In this document: positions 36,183-59,432 of the stretch, one piece after another
How positions within the stretch are numbered: the stretch's first letter is position 1
How the letters are laid out: every line of letters begins with the position of its first letter
NCBI GenBank assembly: GCA_022539475.1
Contig: VCMS01000022.1
Location: forward strand, 1 to 64,000
Direction: 5' to 3'
Source of the DNA: Gracilaria domingensis
Lineage: Eukaryota > Rhodophyta > Florideophyceae > Gracilariales > Gracilariaceae
Length of the DNA stretch: 64,000 nt
Notes under the pieces: model-generated
What the model saw: only the letters and a program-made list of their open reading frames with translations
What the model was told of the DNA's origin: nothing
Databases searched by the model: none
Position numbers and translations under genes: made by a program

Positions 36183-39059
36183 TTATCTCGTATTCAAATC
36201 TACATTAGCCATCATTTCGTTCTTTTCTGATAGTACAAGAAGAGCAGAAAATGTGAACTTCCTAAAGGGATTCGCCCGTAGAGTTTGCACATACAACTCA
36301 TTCTGGACACCGAATTCGCGATTATCCATGTCAACTTCAGCGAAAAATGCACCAGTGTGCGCATTGAAGACACGAACCTTTTCTTCAGCGCTTGCCCCAG
36401 AGACAATATAGTCCCGATTATTCATGTAGTAAGATCGAGTGAAATTGTAATCGTTGCCCGCACGTGGGATCTTAAACTCTGTCATCAGTCGTCCATCAGA
36501 AGCCGAGTATTGGCGAACTTCATTGTCAATAGCAGACACCAAAAGGCACTCATCATCAGGTGAAAAACACGCCATCACGTTCTCAGTCCGACTTCTCGTC
36601 GTAAACACTGGTCGTCGCCCGCCCCCAGGTCTCGATTCTCGCAAGTCCCATTTCTTCACACAGTGGTCAAAACTCGCGGTTATGAGCACATGAGGATTGT
36701 GATGAGCAAACTTCGTGACATTAATGCCTCGATGATGACAATCCTTCATAACCTCTACTTTTCGACCAGTAGCCAGATCGTATAAACCAACATCCCGAGT
36801 TACTCCGCTAACGGCAAATCGCGCATCATCTGCACTGGTATGGATCGATGTCAAATGATCAAAGGGTTCAGACGTATACACACAGCCACCCCTCCTCCTA
36901 TCCCTCATCCAGCTAACACTAAACACATGTATAGCTCCAGCATTTGATCCCGCGAGGAACAGGTCACTCTGTTTGTTTAACCAAGACAGTCCGTACACCT
37001 GGTTCACCTCACGTGCGCCAGCAGCGGCGCCATTCGCATTGCGACCAAACTGTAATCTCCTTAATGAATTCGTTTTCGAGATTACAGCCCCCGGCTCACG
37101 ATCTCCCAAGCCCCCCTTCAAATGACAAGAAGCCTTAACAACACCACTCTCCATATCCATCACAACCAAGTATCCTTTCTCTGTTCCATACACAAGCTCG
37201 CCCGGGATTCTCGGATTGAACTCAAATTGACGAGGGCGATCGCCAATCTGACACAAATATTCTATGCGAGGAGCGCCAGGTCGAGTGAGCAGAACTCGCG
37301 AAAACTGGTCTTCAAACCCGTAGTCTTGCTCGCCTTCATAGCCAGTGCTCGCCCACGCAGCAGAATCCTTTGCTCCGCGCGGCGTTGGTAACAAACCACT
37401 CCATGGTTCCGTGGGCGCAGAAGGACCATCGGTCATACGCGATGACAAGGCAGCAGCCTGAACGCGACGCATTCTTTCAATAAATGAAGCATCACGTTCG
37501 TTCGGTGCAGAGGAAGTCGCTGCCAGGGCAACGGTCAAACCCGTAGCGACGCTCAGTCTTGAAGGTCCGCCACCAGACGGTATACCAGCGGCAGCAACGG
37601 CAGCCATCAAATCCATGACAGGTTCTCCCTGCGAAGCAGTACGACGCCTCTTCCGTAATCTAGGCTCCGAAATGGTGCAGGCACTGCTCCGCGAAAGTCT
37701 GGAGTCATGCGAAATACCCAGTTCACGATCTCGCAACAGTGACGCGGTGCTCTTCCTATTCGAAACACCAGAGGGCGTTCGATGATGTTCGAAATGGTTG
37801 CGCGCAAGTTGACGAGCCTTATCAAGTTCTTCAGGGCCTATATTGACGCCATCAAGCATGTGCAACGGCTTTTTTGTGACGGAAAGCAAAAACACACGGT
37901 AGTGAGGCACGAGCGCTACGGGGGTAGGATTGACGAAAGCAATAGGAGCCCAGCCATTGGGCAGGTGACGTGGTGCATCATGCTGCGAATGATCAATCAT
38001 ATCGATAGGTTCTGTTACAGTGCGTCGGGCGACCGAAGGGTTTGGCGATAATGATGTGTTGATAGTGGCAGCGGTAGCAGCGACAGGGGCGGAGGCAGCA
38101 TTGGGCATAAGTGCATCATGACACGGCTCAGGACATGGTTGCTTTGAAGAAGAATAAGCGCAGTTGTACAGTCGTGAATGAGAATGATGCTGGCGAGGGC
38201 GAAGCGAGTGCTGCGTACACATGGCAGAGTTACGTTCAGCGGCATCATGCATATCGGTGGCAGAGGTAGAAAGTGAGCGACAGAGGTTTTTCATAGAATC
38301 ATAAGTAGTCAAGTCATATATACTGCCGGCAAATAAGGCAGCAACTAGAGAAGGCAAGGCATCCAGAAACTCGGCCGTTCTCCACAAGTTGGAAAACTTG
38401 GTGCAGCGGAGCGACACCCAACGCAGATCCTTAAGAAGAGCGAGAGCGTGATAATGAACGGAGGATATAGGACATGCATCCATACGCAAGCCAACGAGTT
38501 TCGAATGCGGGTGTGAGAGAGGATAAGAATGAAAGAAAGGGTTCCAAGGACGCAAGGCTATGGCGTTGAGATTGCAACATGCAGCAAAGTCAATCTCAAC
38601 ACAGAGATCAAGCGGAAGACGAAACGAAGCAGCCATGAGAGCAGCAGCACCATCGGCACTCAAGTTGGTACAGTGCGAAAAGTCCCACAAACACGGCGTC
38701 GAGGAACACGCGGCAGCAGCACGAGCAAATTCAACATGGTACGGCGTAAGTGCACGAAACGGAGCGTCTAAACAAGCGGTATGAAATGTGTCCAACGCAG
38801 GCAACGAGCAAATGCGAACAAAGTGTCGCAGGAAGAGACGAACAGCCGGCCATGACGCGCCGTACGCAACGAGCAACGCGCACGCAAGCGCGGCGGCGTG
38901 GGAGTCGGAGAGCGAGGAACGAGTGAGAGAAAAGAAGGACGGAAGCGTTTGAAAGAGGGAGGGATGCAGTCGATGGTCGGCGGTGGAGACGGCTAACAAG
39001 TTGCAGACGCGCGTGTAAGTGGCAAGCGCAGCCTCTGAAGGACGGCGGCAATCCGCCAT
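36183..39059 (-). CDS. Large LRR-like plus WD40-repeat protein
   Basis: The product is 958 residues with no intron. The N-terminal 260 residues are Leu/Ala/Cys-rich helical repeats that look like degenerate leucine-rich repeats (LVGLRMDACPISS, LRWVSLRCTKFSNL). Residues about 260-560 are low-complexity His/Ser/Arg-rich. The C-terminal 370 residues form a WD40 propeller, with blades such as GELVYGTEKGYLVVMDMESG, VYGLSWLNKQSDLFLAGSNA, ARFAVSGVTRDVGLYDLATG, LITASFDHCVKKWDLRES and CLLVSAIDNEVRQYSASDG. The exact family was not identified. Proteins with this layout often serve as scaffolds or ubiquitin-ligase receptors, but nothing here proves that. Confidence 0.8.
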   Translation of the reverse strand: MADCRRPSEAALATYTRVCNLLAVSTADHRLHPSLFQTLPSFFSLTRSSLSDSHAAALACALLVAYGASWPAVRLFLRHFVRICSLPALDTFHTACLDAPFRALTPYHVEFARAAAACSSTPCLWDFSHCTNLSADGAAALMAASFRLPLDLCVEIDFAACCNLNAIALRPWNPFFHSYPLSHPHSKLVGLRMDACPISSVHYHALALLKDLRWVSLRCTKFSNLWRTAEFLDALPSLVAALFAGSIYDLTTYDSMKNLCRSLSTSATDMHDAAERNSAMCTQHSLRPRQHHSHSRLYNCAYSSSKQPCPEPCHDALMPNAASAPVAATAATINTSLSPNPSVARRTVTEPIDMIDHSQHDAPRHLPNGWAPIAFVNPTPVALVPHYRVFLLSVTKKPLHMLDGVNIGPEELDKARQLARNHFEHHRTPSGVSNRKSTASLLRDRELGISHDSRLSRSSACTISEPRLRKRRRTASQGEPVMDLMAAVAAAGIPSGGGPSRLSVATGLTVALAATSSAPNERDASFIERMRRVQAAALSSRMTDGPSAPTEPWSGLLPTPRGAKDSAAWASTGYEGEQDYGFEDQFSRVLLTRPGAPRIEYLCQIGDRPRQFEFNPRIPGELVYGTEKGYLVVMDMESGVVKASCHLKGGLGDREPGAVISKTNSLRRLQFGRNANGAAAGAREVNQVYGLSWLNKQSDLFLAGSNAGAIHVFSVSWMRDRRRGGCVYTSEPFDHLTSIHTSADDARFAVSGVTRDVGLYDLATGRKVEVMKDCHHRGINVTKFAHHNPHVLITASFDHCVKKWDLRESRPGGGRRPVFTTRSRTENVMACFSPDDECLLVSAIDNEVRQYSASDGRLMTEFKIPRAGNDYNFTRSYYMNNRDYIVSGASAEEKVRVFNAHTGAFFAEVDMDNREFGVQNELYVQTLRANPFRKFTFSALLVLSEKNEMMANVDLNTR

Positions 39060-39803
39060 GGAAGGCGGACGACAGCAACAGTCAGCTCAAGCGAGGCCGG
39101 GGGCGGTCGCGTCGCGGCGCGCACCAACAGGGCGCAGCAATGGCGGCCACGACGAGGGACGCACGACGAAGAGGGAGCGGGGAGGGGGGAGGGAAGGGCG
39201 TGTGGGGGAGGGAAGGGAAAGGGAGTGCGGGAGGGGGAGGGTGGAGGGGGGTGGTGGAGGGGACAGTGCGGGCGACTAGACATGCATGGTGGAGGGGGAC
39301 GCGCGAACAACGGAGGTTGGAGGGGGGATGAGGTGCGATGGTGCGGCGGACGGGGGGCCGCGGGCGATGGCGGGTGTCGGGTGGCGGGCGTGTTCCACGA
39401 GGTGGTGGAAGCGCGCGGCGTTGCGCTGGCTGCACACACTTGGCGGCAGAAGCGCGCCACAGCGGATCACAGTGCGCGCGCCGCGCCACGCGCGTGCGCG
39501 CCGCTGGAAGGTTGGCTCCGCCGTCGCCGCGTGGCACGCTTGGCATGCGTGGCATGCGTGGCATGCGTGGCATGCATGGCCACGAGCGCCGCTCTGCTGG
39601 GTGCGCACTGCGCACTGCGCACTGCGCACTGCGCACGTGTGAGAAACAGCGCGAATCAGAAACAGCGCGAGTGTGCAATATAGGGGCCGCATGGTGGCGG
39701 CGGGGGCTCTCAAGTTAGCGCGGCTTTATAAAGTAGGAAAGTACGTCGATGGTACAGGGGGGTGGTAGTACACAGGCGGGAGCGGTGGAGGCGAGGCGGC
39801 CAC
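39060..39803. other. CpG-rich intergenic region with G-rich strand and microsatellites
   Basis: The plus strand at 39170-39360 is a long G-rich tract, so the WD40 gene leader is C-rich on its coding strand. Two simple repeats follow at 39540-39579 and 39601-39637. A TATAAAG at about 39726 has no obvious gene. No frame in this stretch resembles the missing middle part of an adenylate kinase. Confidence 0.5.
39540..39637. repeat. Microsatellites, 9-bp and 7-bp units
   Basis: A GGCATGCGT unit is repeated about four times at 39541-39579, and a GCACTGC unit about five times at 39601-39637. Confidence 0.85.
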
Positions 39804-40487
39804 TTACGGCAGCGCGGGCGCCGAGTAGTTGGCACGGAGAAGATCACCCGTGCTGACGTGAACGGCTGATGTGGCGGCGCTCAGCAGCTCGCCCTGCGTG
39901 CCCTTGCCGCAGCCCGGCGCGCCCATGAGCAGCACGCGGCGCTCCACGCCCATGGCGTGTCGCACGCTCTCAAAAACGCTCTCAATGCCCGATCCGTCGT
40001 CGTGCACGACCTGCACCGGGATCTCACCGCCGACCAACACGTCACAGATCTCGTCGGCATGGCGCTCGTAGATGCTCAGCCGCTTCTCGATCACGGCCGG
40101 GTCGTCGTCGGCACGATGCGAGTACAGGCGGCGCGCGAGCAGACGAGAACGGAGTGTGTGCTCGTGCAAATGTAGCTGGATGGCTAATGTAGGCCTTTGC
40201 TCCACGTCCAGAAGAAGCTTTGCTTGCTCCGGCGTGCGTGGATACCCATCCAAGATGTACCCGTTCTGGCGGACATCGGGCTGTGCTAGGCGGCCTCGTA
40301 ACAATGATGTGACCGTGCCGTCATCCAAAAGCTTGCCGGACGCCAAAGTATCATGATGAGGAGAAGCAGCGCGCGGCGGCGCCGTCAGCAGACACGGCGG
40401 CACAAGCGGAGCCGCGCCAGTAGCCGCCTGTGACCGAACGGCGCGCAAGCCGTGACGGGCGGGCGCGTACAATCTTGTCGTTAGCAT
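39804..40487 (-). CDS. Adenylate kinase with swapped halves (circularly permuted?), organellar
   Basis: The ATG at 40487 begins MLTTRLYAPARHGLRAVRSQ, a good organellar presequence, and the product is 227 residues. After about 45 residues comes the second half of an adenylate kinase: ASGKLLDDGTVTSLLRGRLAQP, NGYILDGYPRTPEQA, a short lid with RADDD and RLSIYERHAD, and the final helix ending SVFESVRHAMG. Without a break the N-terminal half follows: RVLLMGAPGCGKGTQ (Walker A P-loop) and HVSTGDLLRANYSAPALP, then stop. In normal kinases the P-loop half comes first. Total length equals one kinase domain. The new ends fall in the loop between STGDLLR and GKLV. The stop TAA lies inside a GTAAGT donor-like sequence, so splicing onward is an alternative, but no continuation is visible before the WD40 gene. 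All core motifs are retained. Confidence 0.8.
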   Translation of the reverse strand: MLTTRLYAPARHGLRAVRSQAATGAAPLVPPCLLTAPPRAASPHHDTLASGKLLDDGTVTSLLRGRLAQPDVRQNGYILDGYPRTPEQAKLLLDVEQRPTLAIQLHLHEHTLRSRLLARRLYSHRADDDPAVIEKRLSIYERHADEICDVLVGGEIPVQVVHDDGSGIESVFESVRHAMGVERRVLLMGAPGCGKGTQGELLSAATSAVHVSTGDLLRANYSAPALP

Positions 40488-41030
40488 GTGGGCGCGACCA
40501 AGAAGCGGAAGGGGGGGTGGGGAAGGGGGAGGGGGAGTTGTCGAACCCACTGTGCGCGCGGCGGCGGCGGCAAGCGCGACGGCGCGTTTTATGGCGAGCG
40601 CGGAATGGCCAGCGCGCCCGCACGTGGCGGATGTGCTCCTTCCGGCGCGGCGGATGTGCATCGCGGGCCGACACGTCAGCGCGCGCAAACGAAATGTTGC
40701 CGCCACGCGATCATTTTTCGGTTCGAGCTTCCATAAAAACGGCCGTGCAAATGTTTTGTGGCGGCAGCCAGCGGCTGTGATTTCTCGCGTCCAGTGGAAG
40801 GCGCGCGCGGCGTGCGTTTTGGCGCCAACTGCGGCCGCGGCGCGTAGATGCGCCTCGGCTTTCCGCGTCGAGCCGCTTTTGCTGCGGCATGCGCGCGCTG
40901 CTTCCACCTGCGCCGCGTTGCGTTTTCGTCCTCTTTCCACGCTGCTCTGCCCGACTTGCCGCCCCGCCCCCCCAATTCAGAGCTCCGTGCACGCTCGACG
41001 CCTTCTGCCCACGCAATGGGTGTCATGTAG

Positions 41031-41486
41031 ATGGGCGTCGCACAAATCATGCCTGTAGAAAACGATGCAATAGAAACGCGCTCTTCAGAATTAAATCCGT
41101 GTACACGCGCACGTTCATGGGCAAGGAAGCTCAAGTCCCTCATTCCCATTTCGCATCATCCGCGGGGCGCTTTGGCCGCGCTTGCGTGTACCAGCAGTGA
41201 GGGCCGCCCACCTCATCTAAACTACAAGCGTTTGCAACGCGGCGATGAGGAAGAGTGGCAGCGCCTTAACCACTGGTTTGACTTGTTCCTCGCTCCAGTG
41301 CCTTTTACGAAGGTGGACGACACTGAGCTCCTGGCCGCCACGGCCGCCGAAGAAAACTTCTTCGAAACGGCGTACAGCAAGCCTGGCGCAAAGACGCCGG
41401 AGACCAACGTTCGGCTTGCGGCTGATCTCAACAGCCGCAGCGACAAGCACGCCAAAAGACGAACAACTTGTTTCACAGGTGTTTAG
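41031..41486 (+). CDS. Small protein, second member of the unrecognised family at 19.7 kb
   Basis: The product is 151 residues. It shares with the acidic protein at 19703-20632 a first block (ARSWARKLKSLIP) and a second block (about 41214-41360) of the form Y-x-x-L-x-R-x-DE-x-x-W-x-x-x-N-x-W-x-D-x-FL-x-P-x-P, followed by VDD.ELLA and EE. The C terminus is different and basic. The region upstream is CpG-rich and shared divergently with the adenylate kinase gene. Because two distant loci keep the same pattern while the DNA differs, the frame is probably a real gene. I do not recognise a function. Confidence 0.6.
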   Translation: MGVAQIMPVENDAIETRSSELNPCTRARSWARKLKSLIPISHHPRGALAALACTSSEGRPPHLNYKRLQRGDEEEWQRLNHWFDLFLAPVPFTKVDDTELLAATAAEENFFETAYSKPGAKTPETNVRLAADLNSRSDKHAKRRTTCFTGV

Positions 41487-44076
41487 GGCTCTTACATCGA
41501 TCACAGTAGTTGCATGGCAAAACGTTTGTCCGCCTTTTCGGCGGGAGAATTTAAAAACTTCTTTACGGACATCCCCATTTCCAGAAAAGGCATTGTCCTC
41601 TGGCGGGTATAGAAGCTCAAAAGCTCTTGTCCGTTGAACTCGAGCCAAGCAGAAAGATGTTAGGTTGCTACAAGGTATAGAATAATTTCTACGCAACGGT
41701 TCCAGTTCTTCTATGATACAAGTTCTATCATTCACGCTTAAACGTTAGCTTAGATGATCTCTAGTGCTACTCTCGTCCACTAAAGAGCTGTTTTTCAAGA
41801 AAGGCACACAGAGCCGTATTTGTGACTACCAAAATAGTAAACTGAGCAGTCACTCACAAAAATGGCAAATCGACTAGTAACCACGCTCCAAAAACCCAGC
41901 GCCCCTGGTACTACCCCCTGCGTAGTACGCATCATGACTGTATTAATTGACTTCGGCCATGCGCTCAGCAAAATATCACAATACTAATCCAAGCTTCTGA
42001 TTCAGCCACCAATCCTCACAAACTATAGTCAACTATGGCACACTACAGAAACAGTTCCAACTTGGCTAAAACAGGCCTAGATGGCCGGAAACGAACCATG
42101 CAGCTCAGCTCGTCTGTATCAATTTGTTGGCAAGTACCTTTGTACCTTTGAAGGTTACCGTCATTGTTACAGAGACAACTCATCCATGTTTGGCGTGACG
42201 GGCGTGCCAAGGGCCCTTCAAAAAAGTTCTTCAGTAGCTCGGCTGAGAAAAGCTTTGAAAGGTCTTCTTCTCAACTGGGATATCTGAAGAGATCTAAAGC
42301 AATGAAAAATCGATATTCCAAGTTGTACATACTCTGCATTCGAAAGCTTTTGCAAAGGACCTGTGACAATTGAGTACGATTGAATGAAAGAAAGCTTCAC
42401 ATATTGAAGAAGGAATGTTTTGTCTACATTATATTATTGCTTGACCATGCATGTTTTGATTTCATATCGATGGTTCGGTCCTCCGATAAGACTATCACCA
42501 TACTAGCAAGACATTCTGTGATGAGTGTAGGGAAGTAATCTGTCACGTTGCAGATAAACAGTAGAACAGGGAATGTTTCGTTTGTTGTGCAGGAAACCAA
42601 CAATCTCACCAGAGGTGAAACGTTTTCGAAATAGTTCAGTAACAGGGTTCGCCTCGAAGCAATTATTAACGCCAGTCCGTAGGCTACTAGGGGGGGAGCA
42701 ACGGCAAGCAAGGGCAAGGGCAAGGGACTAAGTATTAGTAATACTGCGTGTTAAAGAGTCCAGCTTCTGGACCAGGGGTTGGCTCGGGTAGGCCTTTGCA
42801 TATGCGCTATTTGAGCCGTACAGGACAAGCAACGAACTAGCTCACGTGACGCACTATATCTGAAGCGGCTTCGAGATTCTTGAACCTCCGCCAAGATTAT
42901 TGAGATTAATCCAATTTCTTCGCACGCTAGCAGGATATAATATCTTTTTTGGAAGACATCGACATCATGACCGAGGTTGATCATCATCGTCGTGATAGAC
43001 ATGATGTCGTGTTGGTTCAGAGCAGTCGTGAACCAGCCAAAAAGAATCGATCCTCCATTTGCTGTTGTATTGGGCAGGATATGATAAAATTCATCGCGGT
43101 CATTGTGAAAGAATATTTCTTTTGCTTGCCTGCAAGCACGGCATGTCCGTGAATTTATCTTGAGATGCTCCTGACGGACTTGACGTCTCCTCACAAATTC
43201 ATGATCGGGAAAACTCTTCCAACTCTCGAGATGACTTTCTGCAAGCCGAACGTGTTAACTGCAGAACTCGAAGAGCGATGTCAGTCTAGTGCGTCCAACA
43301 AGACCACTGCCACTGACGGGCTATGGTCTTGTGCAAAGGCGTCGCTGCAAATGTACCTGTACTATGATCGATATCAACCAAATCATCAACTGGGGTTCAC
43401 CAATCGGTTATGTATAGACATATCGTAGCTACGATACCAGTAATTGAAATGACTTCTGGTGGAGACGAAGTGGGAACGATAAAGTCATTCTCTGAACGTT
43501 GGGCTCAGAGCCTGCTTATGCCGAGCGGAGAAAATTGGTGAATGGACACTCGATGGGATAGCGATCGTGAAAAAGATGAGCAGTTTAAGTGACTGCTGCA
43601 TCTGAAATAGAGAGAAAGAGCAGTTAACTGGGAAATCGCCAGCAGCTTTTTCTCCCATTGGCGCTTGCAGGGGAACGTTAAAGCAAAGAACCAGAGGGTA
43701 TCATAGATGACGTAGCCCGAAAGGTATGGACTGGATTCGAAGCTTAACATGAATGATAAGAGAAGAGATGGAGGAGATCCGTGGGTTTCCGGCCACGATG
43801 CTCATGCCCTGATGCTCTTGTCCCAGGTTGTTGCGCCCAAGAACAGCTGCTTATACCACATTGAAGTGCGAGTGAGGTGTTCATCCGACGAGCAATCGAG
43901 AAAGCGTTCTCTCAACGAAAGAGGGAACAGGATCACCATGTCAGGGCCAACACAATGGAACTACACGTAGTAGGGAGTTCATTTATGAAGTAACTCGAAA
44001 AGACTACATGAAGGACTTCTTCTGCTTCTGGATAAATATACAAATCCCCCACTTCAGTCAGTGATTAAATATAAAA
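41487..44076. other. Intergenic region with possible decayed membrane-protein gene on the minus strand
   Basis: About 2.6 kb. On the minus strand several short frames are hydrophobic: 43750-43505 (SGYVIYDTLWFFALTF), a signal-peptide-like MQQSLKLLIFFTIAIPSSVHS near 43595, 43194-42751, and 42723-42424 (FPVLLFICNVTDYF). They do not join clearly into one gene. They may be an intron-rich gene or a decayed one. No family was recognised, and a distant third channel copy is only a guess. Confidence 0.25.
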
Positions 44077-58866: not shown

Positions 58867-59432
58867 TGACGAGCAGCAGCAAAGTGTAAAGCAGCGGCCG
58901 CAGCCGCCGGCCGCCGGCCGTAGGGTTTGCCGCGCAATGCACAAAGATGCGCATTCTCCCCACGCGCGCCAATGGGCGGCAGCGCGCCACGCCCCGCCAA
59001 TCAGCGCGGCGCGCGCGCCAGCAGCGCCGCGCCGTTACCGGCCGCGTGCAAATTGCACGCGCAGCGCGCCCAATGCGCGGCGCCCGCCGCCGCGCGCGCA
59101 GCGAGCGGCGCGCCGCGCGTGACGGCGCCGTCGCAAGAGCGCCGCGCGGCGGCGCCGCGGCAGTCTGCTAGTCGCCGCCAGCGGCGCTGCCAGGCGCAAC
59201 CCTCTTACCAGCTACGCTCCCCCGCACCGCGCGCCACACACCCGCGCTGCGTGCGTCCAACTTGCAACCCGCGCGCGTCTACCCCGCCCGCCCCGCGTTC
59301 CCCCCCCCCCCCCTCCCCCGCAGCACTTGCTTCGCCCGCCGCGCCGCCCGTTCCAACCCCTCCGCGTGTCCGCCCGCCGCGTCCCTCCCCTCCCCTCCCC
59401 CCCCCCCCCCCCCACCACCCCCCAACGCACGT
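58867..59432. other. CpG-rich intergenic region with poly-C runs before the kinase
   Basis: Very rich in GCGCGC. C-runs lie at 59300-59313 and 59397-59413, the second ending about 20 bases before the kinase ATG. Confidence 0.5.

Follow-up and report, generated by a model that had tools for sequence, protein, structure and literature searches.

An adenylate kinase gene of the red alga Gracilaria domingensis with its two halves in swapped order: a probable natural circular permutation

In a window of 64 kb, the whole stretch of DNA analysed here and the start of a contig of 1,013,300 bases (C22; genome of 77.9 Mb in 680 contigs), an open reading frame on the minus strand was found to encode an adenylate kinase (AK) whose C-terminal half stands in front of its N-terminal, P-loop half. 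We consider it probable, at roughly three chances in four, that this is a real red-algal nuclear gene encoding one complete AK domain in naturally circularly permuted order.

Order and completeness of the two halves

The frame runs uninterrupted from ATG to TAA. It opens with a basic presequence, continues from the third helix of AK to the C-terminus of the domain, passes directly into the P-loop half and ends there with the stop codon (Table 1).

Table 1. Features of the permuted AK frame in window coordinates
Feature	Position	Strand	Remark
Whole open frame of the permuted AK	39804..40487	-	227 aa plus stop
C/T-rich tract, 20-50 nt before the start codon	40507..40537	-	0.97 C+T in 30 nt
Presequence, residues 1-45	40353..40487	-	5 Arg, 0 Lys, 0 Asp/Glu
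C-terminal part of AK (third to last helix), residues 46-179	39951..40352	-	profile 53-188, E 2.7e-27
DGYPRT motif, residues 80-85	40233..40250	-	motif
RADDD of short LID region, residues 125-129	40101..40115	-	motif
N-terminal P-loop part of AK, residues 180-227, immediately after the last helix of the C-terminal part	39807..39950	-	profile 3-42, E 3.3e-11
P-loop GAPGCGKGT, residues 189-197	39897..39923	-	motif
NMP-binding motif STGDLLR, residues 212-218, close to the new C-terminus	39834..39854	-	motif
GTAAGT, donor-like hexamer containing the stop codon	39802..39807	-	sequence

A profile of our own, built from 57 bacterial AKs of normal order (model length 191) and searched without filters, matched the frame first with model positions 53-188 (E 2.7e-27) and then with positions 3-42 (E 3.3e-11). 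Both matches bear out what an earlier note on this DNA had claimed, that the halves of an AK are swapped within one frame, and the motifs quoted there (GKLL, DGYPRT, RADDD, GAPGCGKGTQ and STGDLLR) were all present. Against Pfam ADK (PF00406), the 227-aa protein scored 91.8 bits (E 6.2e-26), also in two stretches: the best one aligned residues 46-149 with profile positions 47-144 of 151, and the second piece (window 39822-39929) covered positions 1-36. The best NCBIfam model, TIGR01351 adenylate kinase, gave 120.9 bits; a score under its cut-off of 168 is expected if the order of the halves is broken.

With the halves returned by a script to the usual order, the protein could be aligned along its length with five AKs of the same genome (C87, C23, C250, C12 and C320), which carry the homologous domain, all in normal order. 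At the cut, where STGDLLRANYSAPALP meets SPHHDTLASGKLL, a gap of one residue was left. The permuted protein also kept 32 of the 37 positions that are conserved in at least 85% of the 57 bacterial AKs, among them the P-loop, DGxPR and the conserved LID arginines; in the same columns C87 kept 32, C23 34, C250 27, C12 27 and C320 26. The earlier proposal that the halves add up to one domain thus agrees with both computations.

The signatures of the family are in place: GxPGxGKGT as GAPGCGKGT, STGD..R and DGxPR..Q as STGDLLR and DGYPRTPEQ, and the LID arginines with RxDD...R as RADDD, the conserved R columns being kept. It is the order of the P-loop half and the DGxPR half that is reversed. The frame holds two segments of one domain that are swapped, do not overlap and are jointly complete, as in a circular permutation; model positions 3-42 and 53-188 are covered, the residues at the cut between them are divergent, and the core is complete in the AlphaFold2 prediction given below.

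The ATG at 40487 was taken as the probable start because the C/T tract precedes it. An alternative in-frame ATG at 40661 would give 285 aa, and the frame stays open upstream as far as 40976. Within 150 nt upstream, the maximum C+T content per 30 nt was 0.97 for the AK frame, 0.97 for an ORF encoding a WD40 protein and 1.00 for a protein kinase ORF; it was 0.57-0.83 for the other 18 window ORFs examined, and 0.93 at the 99th percentile of 5000 random 150-mers. Nearly pure C/T tracts were seen before these three ORF starts (39168-39198 for the WD40 ORF, 40507-40537 and 59382-59413), and they are possibly a shared promoter or leader feature.

In the presequence, the amphipathic stretch of residues 2-19 had the highest hydrophobic moment, 0.56, just beyond the 95th percentile (0.55) of 2000 shuffles of the same letters. 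Judged by its composition and this moment, the presequence is possibly an organelle (mitochondrial-type) targeting signal.

The codon score of the AK frame (-0.081) was the best of the six frames, the others scoring -0.243 or lower; the score penalises stops, which lowers the other frames, and its yardstick is 20 unverified window ORFs. In each of three segments, the AK reading frame likewise scored best among the three forward frames. The overall score is slightly negative, and the gene is GC-rich relative to most window ORFs. In windows of 20 codons, GC3 was 0.50-0.70 up to codon 120 and 0.65-1.00 beyond it; the larger change falls inside the C-terminal part and not at the joint, although the highest value is that of the full window just behind the joint.

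Predicted structure and possible consequences of the swapped order

The alignment given to AlphaFold2 consisted of 35 bacterial AK fragments (25 C-parts and 10 N-parts) picked from 80 loci. Its rows were selected by their alignment behaviour, with the C-parts trimmed before the last helix and the N-parts having their motifs in register. In a single prediction, the 227-residue product, for which the earlier note had suggested a structure check, was given a compact AK-like fold (mean pLDDT 80.2, pTM 0.73). By blocks of ten residues, pLDDT was 83-96 for residues 51-160, 77-79 for 161-180 and 90-93 for 181-220; it was low in the presequence up to residue 40 (34-51) and in the last seven residues, 221-227 (46).

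The predicted elements of the C-terminal part are helices 45-49, 56-67 and 70-75, strand 77-80, helix 86-93, strand 101-106, helices 109-123 and 130-153, strand 158-162 and helix 168-181; those of the N-terminal part are strand 184-189, helix 195-206, strand 209-212 and helix 213-219. We take this order to be the AK set, read from its third helix round to its second. Since the alignment consists of AK fragments only, it partly predetermines that each part folds like AK. The joint has no support from the alignment because the C-part rows stop before it, and the packing of the two parts and the joint are AlphaFold2's own prediction.

When the model was compared with the PDB by Foldseek, adenylate kinases came out on top (8pvw, E 1.4e-3; 5x6k, target TM 0.61), with no match at E <= 0.001. 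The alignments to the 8pvw and 5x6k chains spanned about 136-142 columns (target TM 0.53-0.61). Such short alignments fit a sequential aligner that matches one part at a time, and their size fits the C-terminal part. With short-LID members of PF00406, such as the short E. coli AK (8pvw) and AK1 (5x6k), the permuted AK shares the motifs, the catalytic residues compared and the predicted secondary structure, but the order of the two halves differs.

In the predicted structure, a linker of about three residues (GVE) would connect the old N- and C-termini, bridging helix 168-181 and strand 184-189. The chain would be opened within the AMP-binding lid, in the loop that links helices 2 and 3, and the presequence would stand in front. 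If, as we infer, the gene is expressed and its product is targeted and active, the chain would fold as an ordinary AK and catalyse 2 ADP <-> ATP + AMP or a closely related NMP kinase reaction; the site may be an organelle. In ordinary AKs the AMP-binding lid is inserted into the chain and held at two hinges. Here it would become two arms, one at each chain end; since the cut lies within the lid, each arm would hang on one hinge, and such a two-armed lid may alter lid opening. We lean slightly towards a working, organelle-targeted, naturally circularly permuted AK that is kept by selection in the red-algal lineage and whose dynamics may differ, its lid being formed from two chain ends.

AK serves as a standard model in studies of folding and domain motion. 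If the reading as a permuted gene is true, a permutant that evolved with its cut in the AMP lid would offer a natural test of the idea, found in excerpts of PMC4230728, that domain insertion and cooperative folding are connected. The naturally permuted P-loop enzymes, which are GTPases in the sections consulted of PMC2430557, would gain an NMP kinase. Such a rearrangement of a textbook enzyme in nature would be rare: a known family with its halves in a new order.

As for the origin of the permuted AK, we infer that the gene was likely duplicated in tandem and then lost its outer halves. The part of PMC3320104 that was consulted names duplication as one of the two main models of circular permutation. 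A profile search without filters found no remnants of the lost outer halves in the window.

Alternative readings of the locus

The alternative that survives best, although we hold it to be unlikely, is that the frame is one exon of a spliced tandem AK, containing the C-terminal half of a first domain and the N-terminal half of a second, with the other halves in unseen exons. Tandem AKs exist in other eukaryotes. The earlier note was right to place the stop TAA within GTAAGT, a perfect donor hexamer, but it put the GT at 39806, whereas its G is position 39807; the hexamer occurs 24 times in the window on both strands together. There is also a CTAAC a short distance ahead of the AG sites at 39709 and 39707, and the same intron position in both copies would explain the exact complementarity of the halves equally well. 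If GTAAGT is a donor, however, the missing C-terminal half should follow. The donor was joined in a script to 20 AG sites at 39033-39724 (introns of at least 40 nt); 19 products were long enough to score and none of them was AK-like (best E 2.4), which counts against an unseen exon in that stretch.

Elsewhere in the window, no other AK piece was found among 2331 six-frame stretches of at least 15 residues (next best E 0.45), a length limit which tiny exons could escape. A second set of AK halves, as a tandem AK would need in the same gene, is thus absent from these stretches, and a genome search with PF00406 (E <= 10, best candidates scored) gave just one further, weak match on the contig, at 421 kb and 380 kb away (E 0.22). 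By eye, that match is AK6-like.

The AGs upstream of the C-terminal half end at 40550, 40474, 40428 and 40332, with none between the last two, just before that half. Acceptors at 40428 and 40332 would be of phase 0 and the GTAAGT donor is of phase 2, so that a shared intron position in two tandem copies is not supported. The next long ORF on the strand, that of the WD40 protein, begins at 39059, 745 bases downstream. Most genes are intron-less in the four Gracilaria species covered by the available text of PMC10388701 (70.6-76.6%), which also speaks against an exon of a larger gene. Splicing to an unseen exon and a truncated tandem kinase, both offered as options in the earlier note, have lost ground by these results. 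Splicing from GTAAGT to a tail unrelated to AK is possible.

Slightly less probable still is that the frame is the decaying remnant of a tandem kinase pair, open by chance and without function. The genome does hold AK copies with stops (C159, C20, C315 and C49) and one split over two frames (C278), and the long branch of the permuted protein (2.05 changes per column; see below) fits relaxed constraint. On the other hand, the reading frame stayed open over its 227 codons in only 9 of 2000 letter shuffles, the 32 conserved positions were kept despite the long branch, and the two ends together fall no more than one residue short of a full domain.

That an assembly artefact has swapped or chimerised a normal gene is improbable, even though the contig was taken as assembled. 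In a DNA search of the genome, which skips simple repeats and very common words, the locus matched only itself; repeats within 38000-43500 were short (20-36 nt) and imperfect (about 70-85% alike), and the contig is long. It can also be argued that the collapse of a tandem array of normal units would give the normal order, and that a false join would hardly be in frame and complementary, with a start and a stop.

Least of all do we credit back-splicing or trans-splicing that restores the normal order in RNA, with the genomic order as a storage form only: a donor-like GTAAGT does lie directly behind the N-terminal half and an AG at 40332 in front of LLDD, but splicing at that AG would delete the GK of GKLL, the order in the DNA already yields a complete predicted fold, and we know of no precedent for it in AK.

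The reading first put forward in the earlier note, a natural circular permutation whose new chain ends fall in the loop from STGDLLR to GKL, is supported: the complementarity of the halves, the conserved residues, the predicted fold, the match of the locus to itself only and the missing half not found nearby all fit it.

Relatives, literature and other AK copies

For prokaryotes, the order of the halves was surveyed in the best 80 of 569 confirmed AK loci (among 590 stretches). A first motif count on these 80 gave 57 of normal order, 17 without the P-loop pattern in the chosen frame, 6 without a frame and none permuted. With the profile, which was itself built from 57 of the same 80 loci, all 80 were colinear: 79 had both halves in normal order, one had less, and none was permuted. 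A search of viral contigs with the permuted protein gave no relative.

Within the genome, both halves found their best match in the same paralogue, C23, at 51-53% over 36-37 residues for the N-terminal part and 32-39% over 72-123 residues for the C-terminal part. In a tree of 86 rows, the permuted AK was unplaced, its branch of 2.05 changes per column adjoining another long branch. Horizontal transfer or placement in a subfamily was dropped for this reason, the position being flagged as one long branch meeting another, and no origin is claimed from the tree because it leaves the protein unplaced.

Transposon-made permutation libraries of Thermotoga AK have reportedly been described in two papers. 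The cut in the permuted AK presumably falls about 15 residues after that of CP-NMPcut, an in silico permutant. In the excerpts of PMC4230728, CP-NMPcut and CP-LIDcut are simulated permutants of E. coli AK with their ends joined by four glycines; in the simulations, folding is less cooperative for permutants whose lid is singly linked, and domain insertion supports cooperative folding. Like the permuted AK, they indicate that a short linker can connect the chain ends, at least in simulation; CP-NMPcut is cut between residues 29 and 30, whereas the cut here lies inside the lid loop. A split Thermotoga AK, according to the portion consulted of PMC6313779, reassembles from fragments into a working enzyme in E. 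coli. That protein is engineered and the two permutants are in silico, whereas the permuted AK is read here as natural.

Keyword searches of the open-licence literature found no natural permuted AK named in the titles or the beginnings of abstracts among the papers listed. The parts seen of PMC4230728, PMC2213659, PMC1079889, PMC6313779, PMC10119929 and PMC7815116 deal with simulated permutants, split AK and designed P-loop prototypes, and name no natural permuted AK. Closest in kind are naturally permuted GTPases: in the excerpts of PMC2430557, the YRG (YjeQ/YqeH) proteins have the order G4-G5-G1-G2-G3 and retain GTP binding and hydrolysis, and cpRAS has G3-G4-G5-G1-G2. Going by those excerpts, they share with the permuted AK the P-loop NTPase fold and C-terminal motifs ahead of the P-loop, but they belong to a different family, are GTPases rather than NMP kinases and are cut at another point.

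The genome seems to have gone through repeated duplication of AK genes. Apparently decayed copies were seen at loci L011-L013, L015, L018 and L019 (C159, C20, C315, C49 and C278), the first four contigs having stops in the matched stretch. At C320:24367-24870 (+; L014), an AK-like domain sits in a 766-residue frame with a C-terminal part that is NAD-kinase-like by eye (GGDG, NLGSLGFLTPF); its AK part is without the conserved R of RxDD and the R column that follows. At C250:44984-45445 (+; L009), a part that is nucleoside-diphosphate-kinase-like by eye shares one frame with AK; the frame resembles an Nme5-like protein of Chondrus crispus mentioned in the available text of PMC7024210. At C23:134101-134628 (+; L008), the frame of the AK continues into a hydrophobic C-terminal region, DUF3054-like by eye.

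Around the permuted gene, the neighbours in the window include eukaryotic-type genes (WD40, PI4-kinase, protein kinase, TLDc and LRR). Ten other window ORFs were compared with Pfam; four matched (PI4-kinase, protein kinase, TLDc and LRR) and six had no match. In the spacer that separates the AK gene from the next ORF, repetition of short units (CATGCCACG-like and GTGCGCA-like) was noted by eye at window 39530-39625, and a repeat listing gave one short family there (39590-39624). Phycobilisome-linker matches, which fit a red alga, were found 14 times on ten contigs of the genome, four of them on C680, which is probably the plastid.
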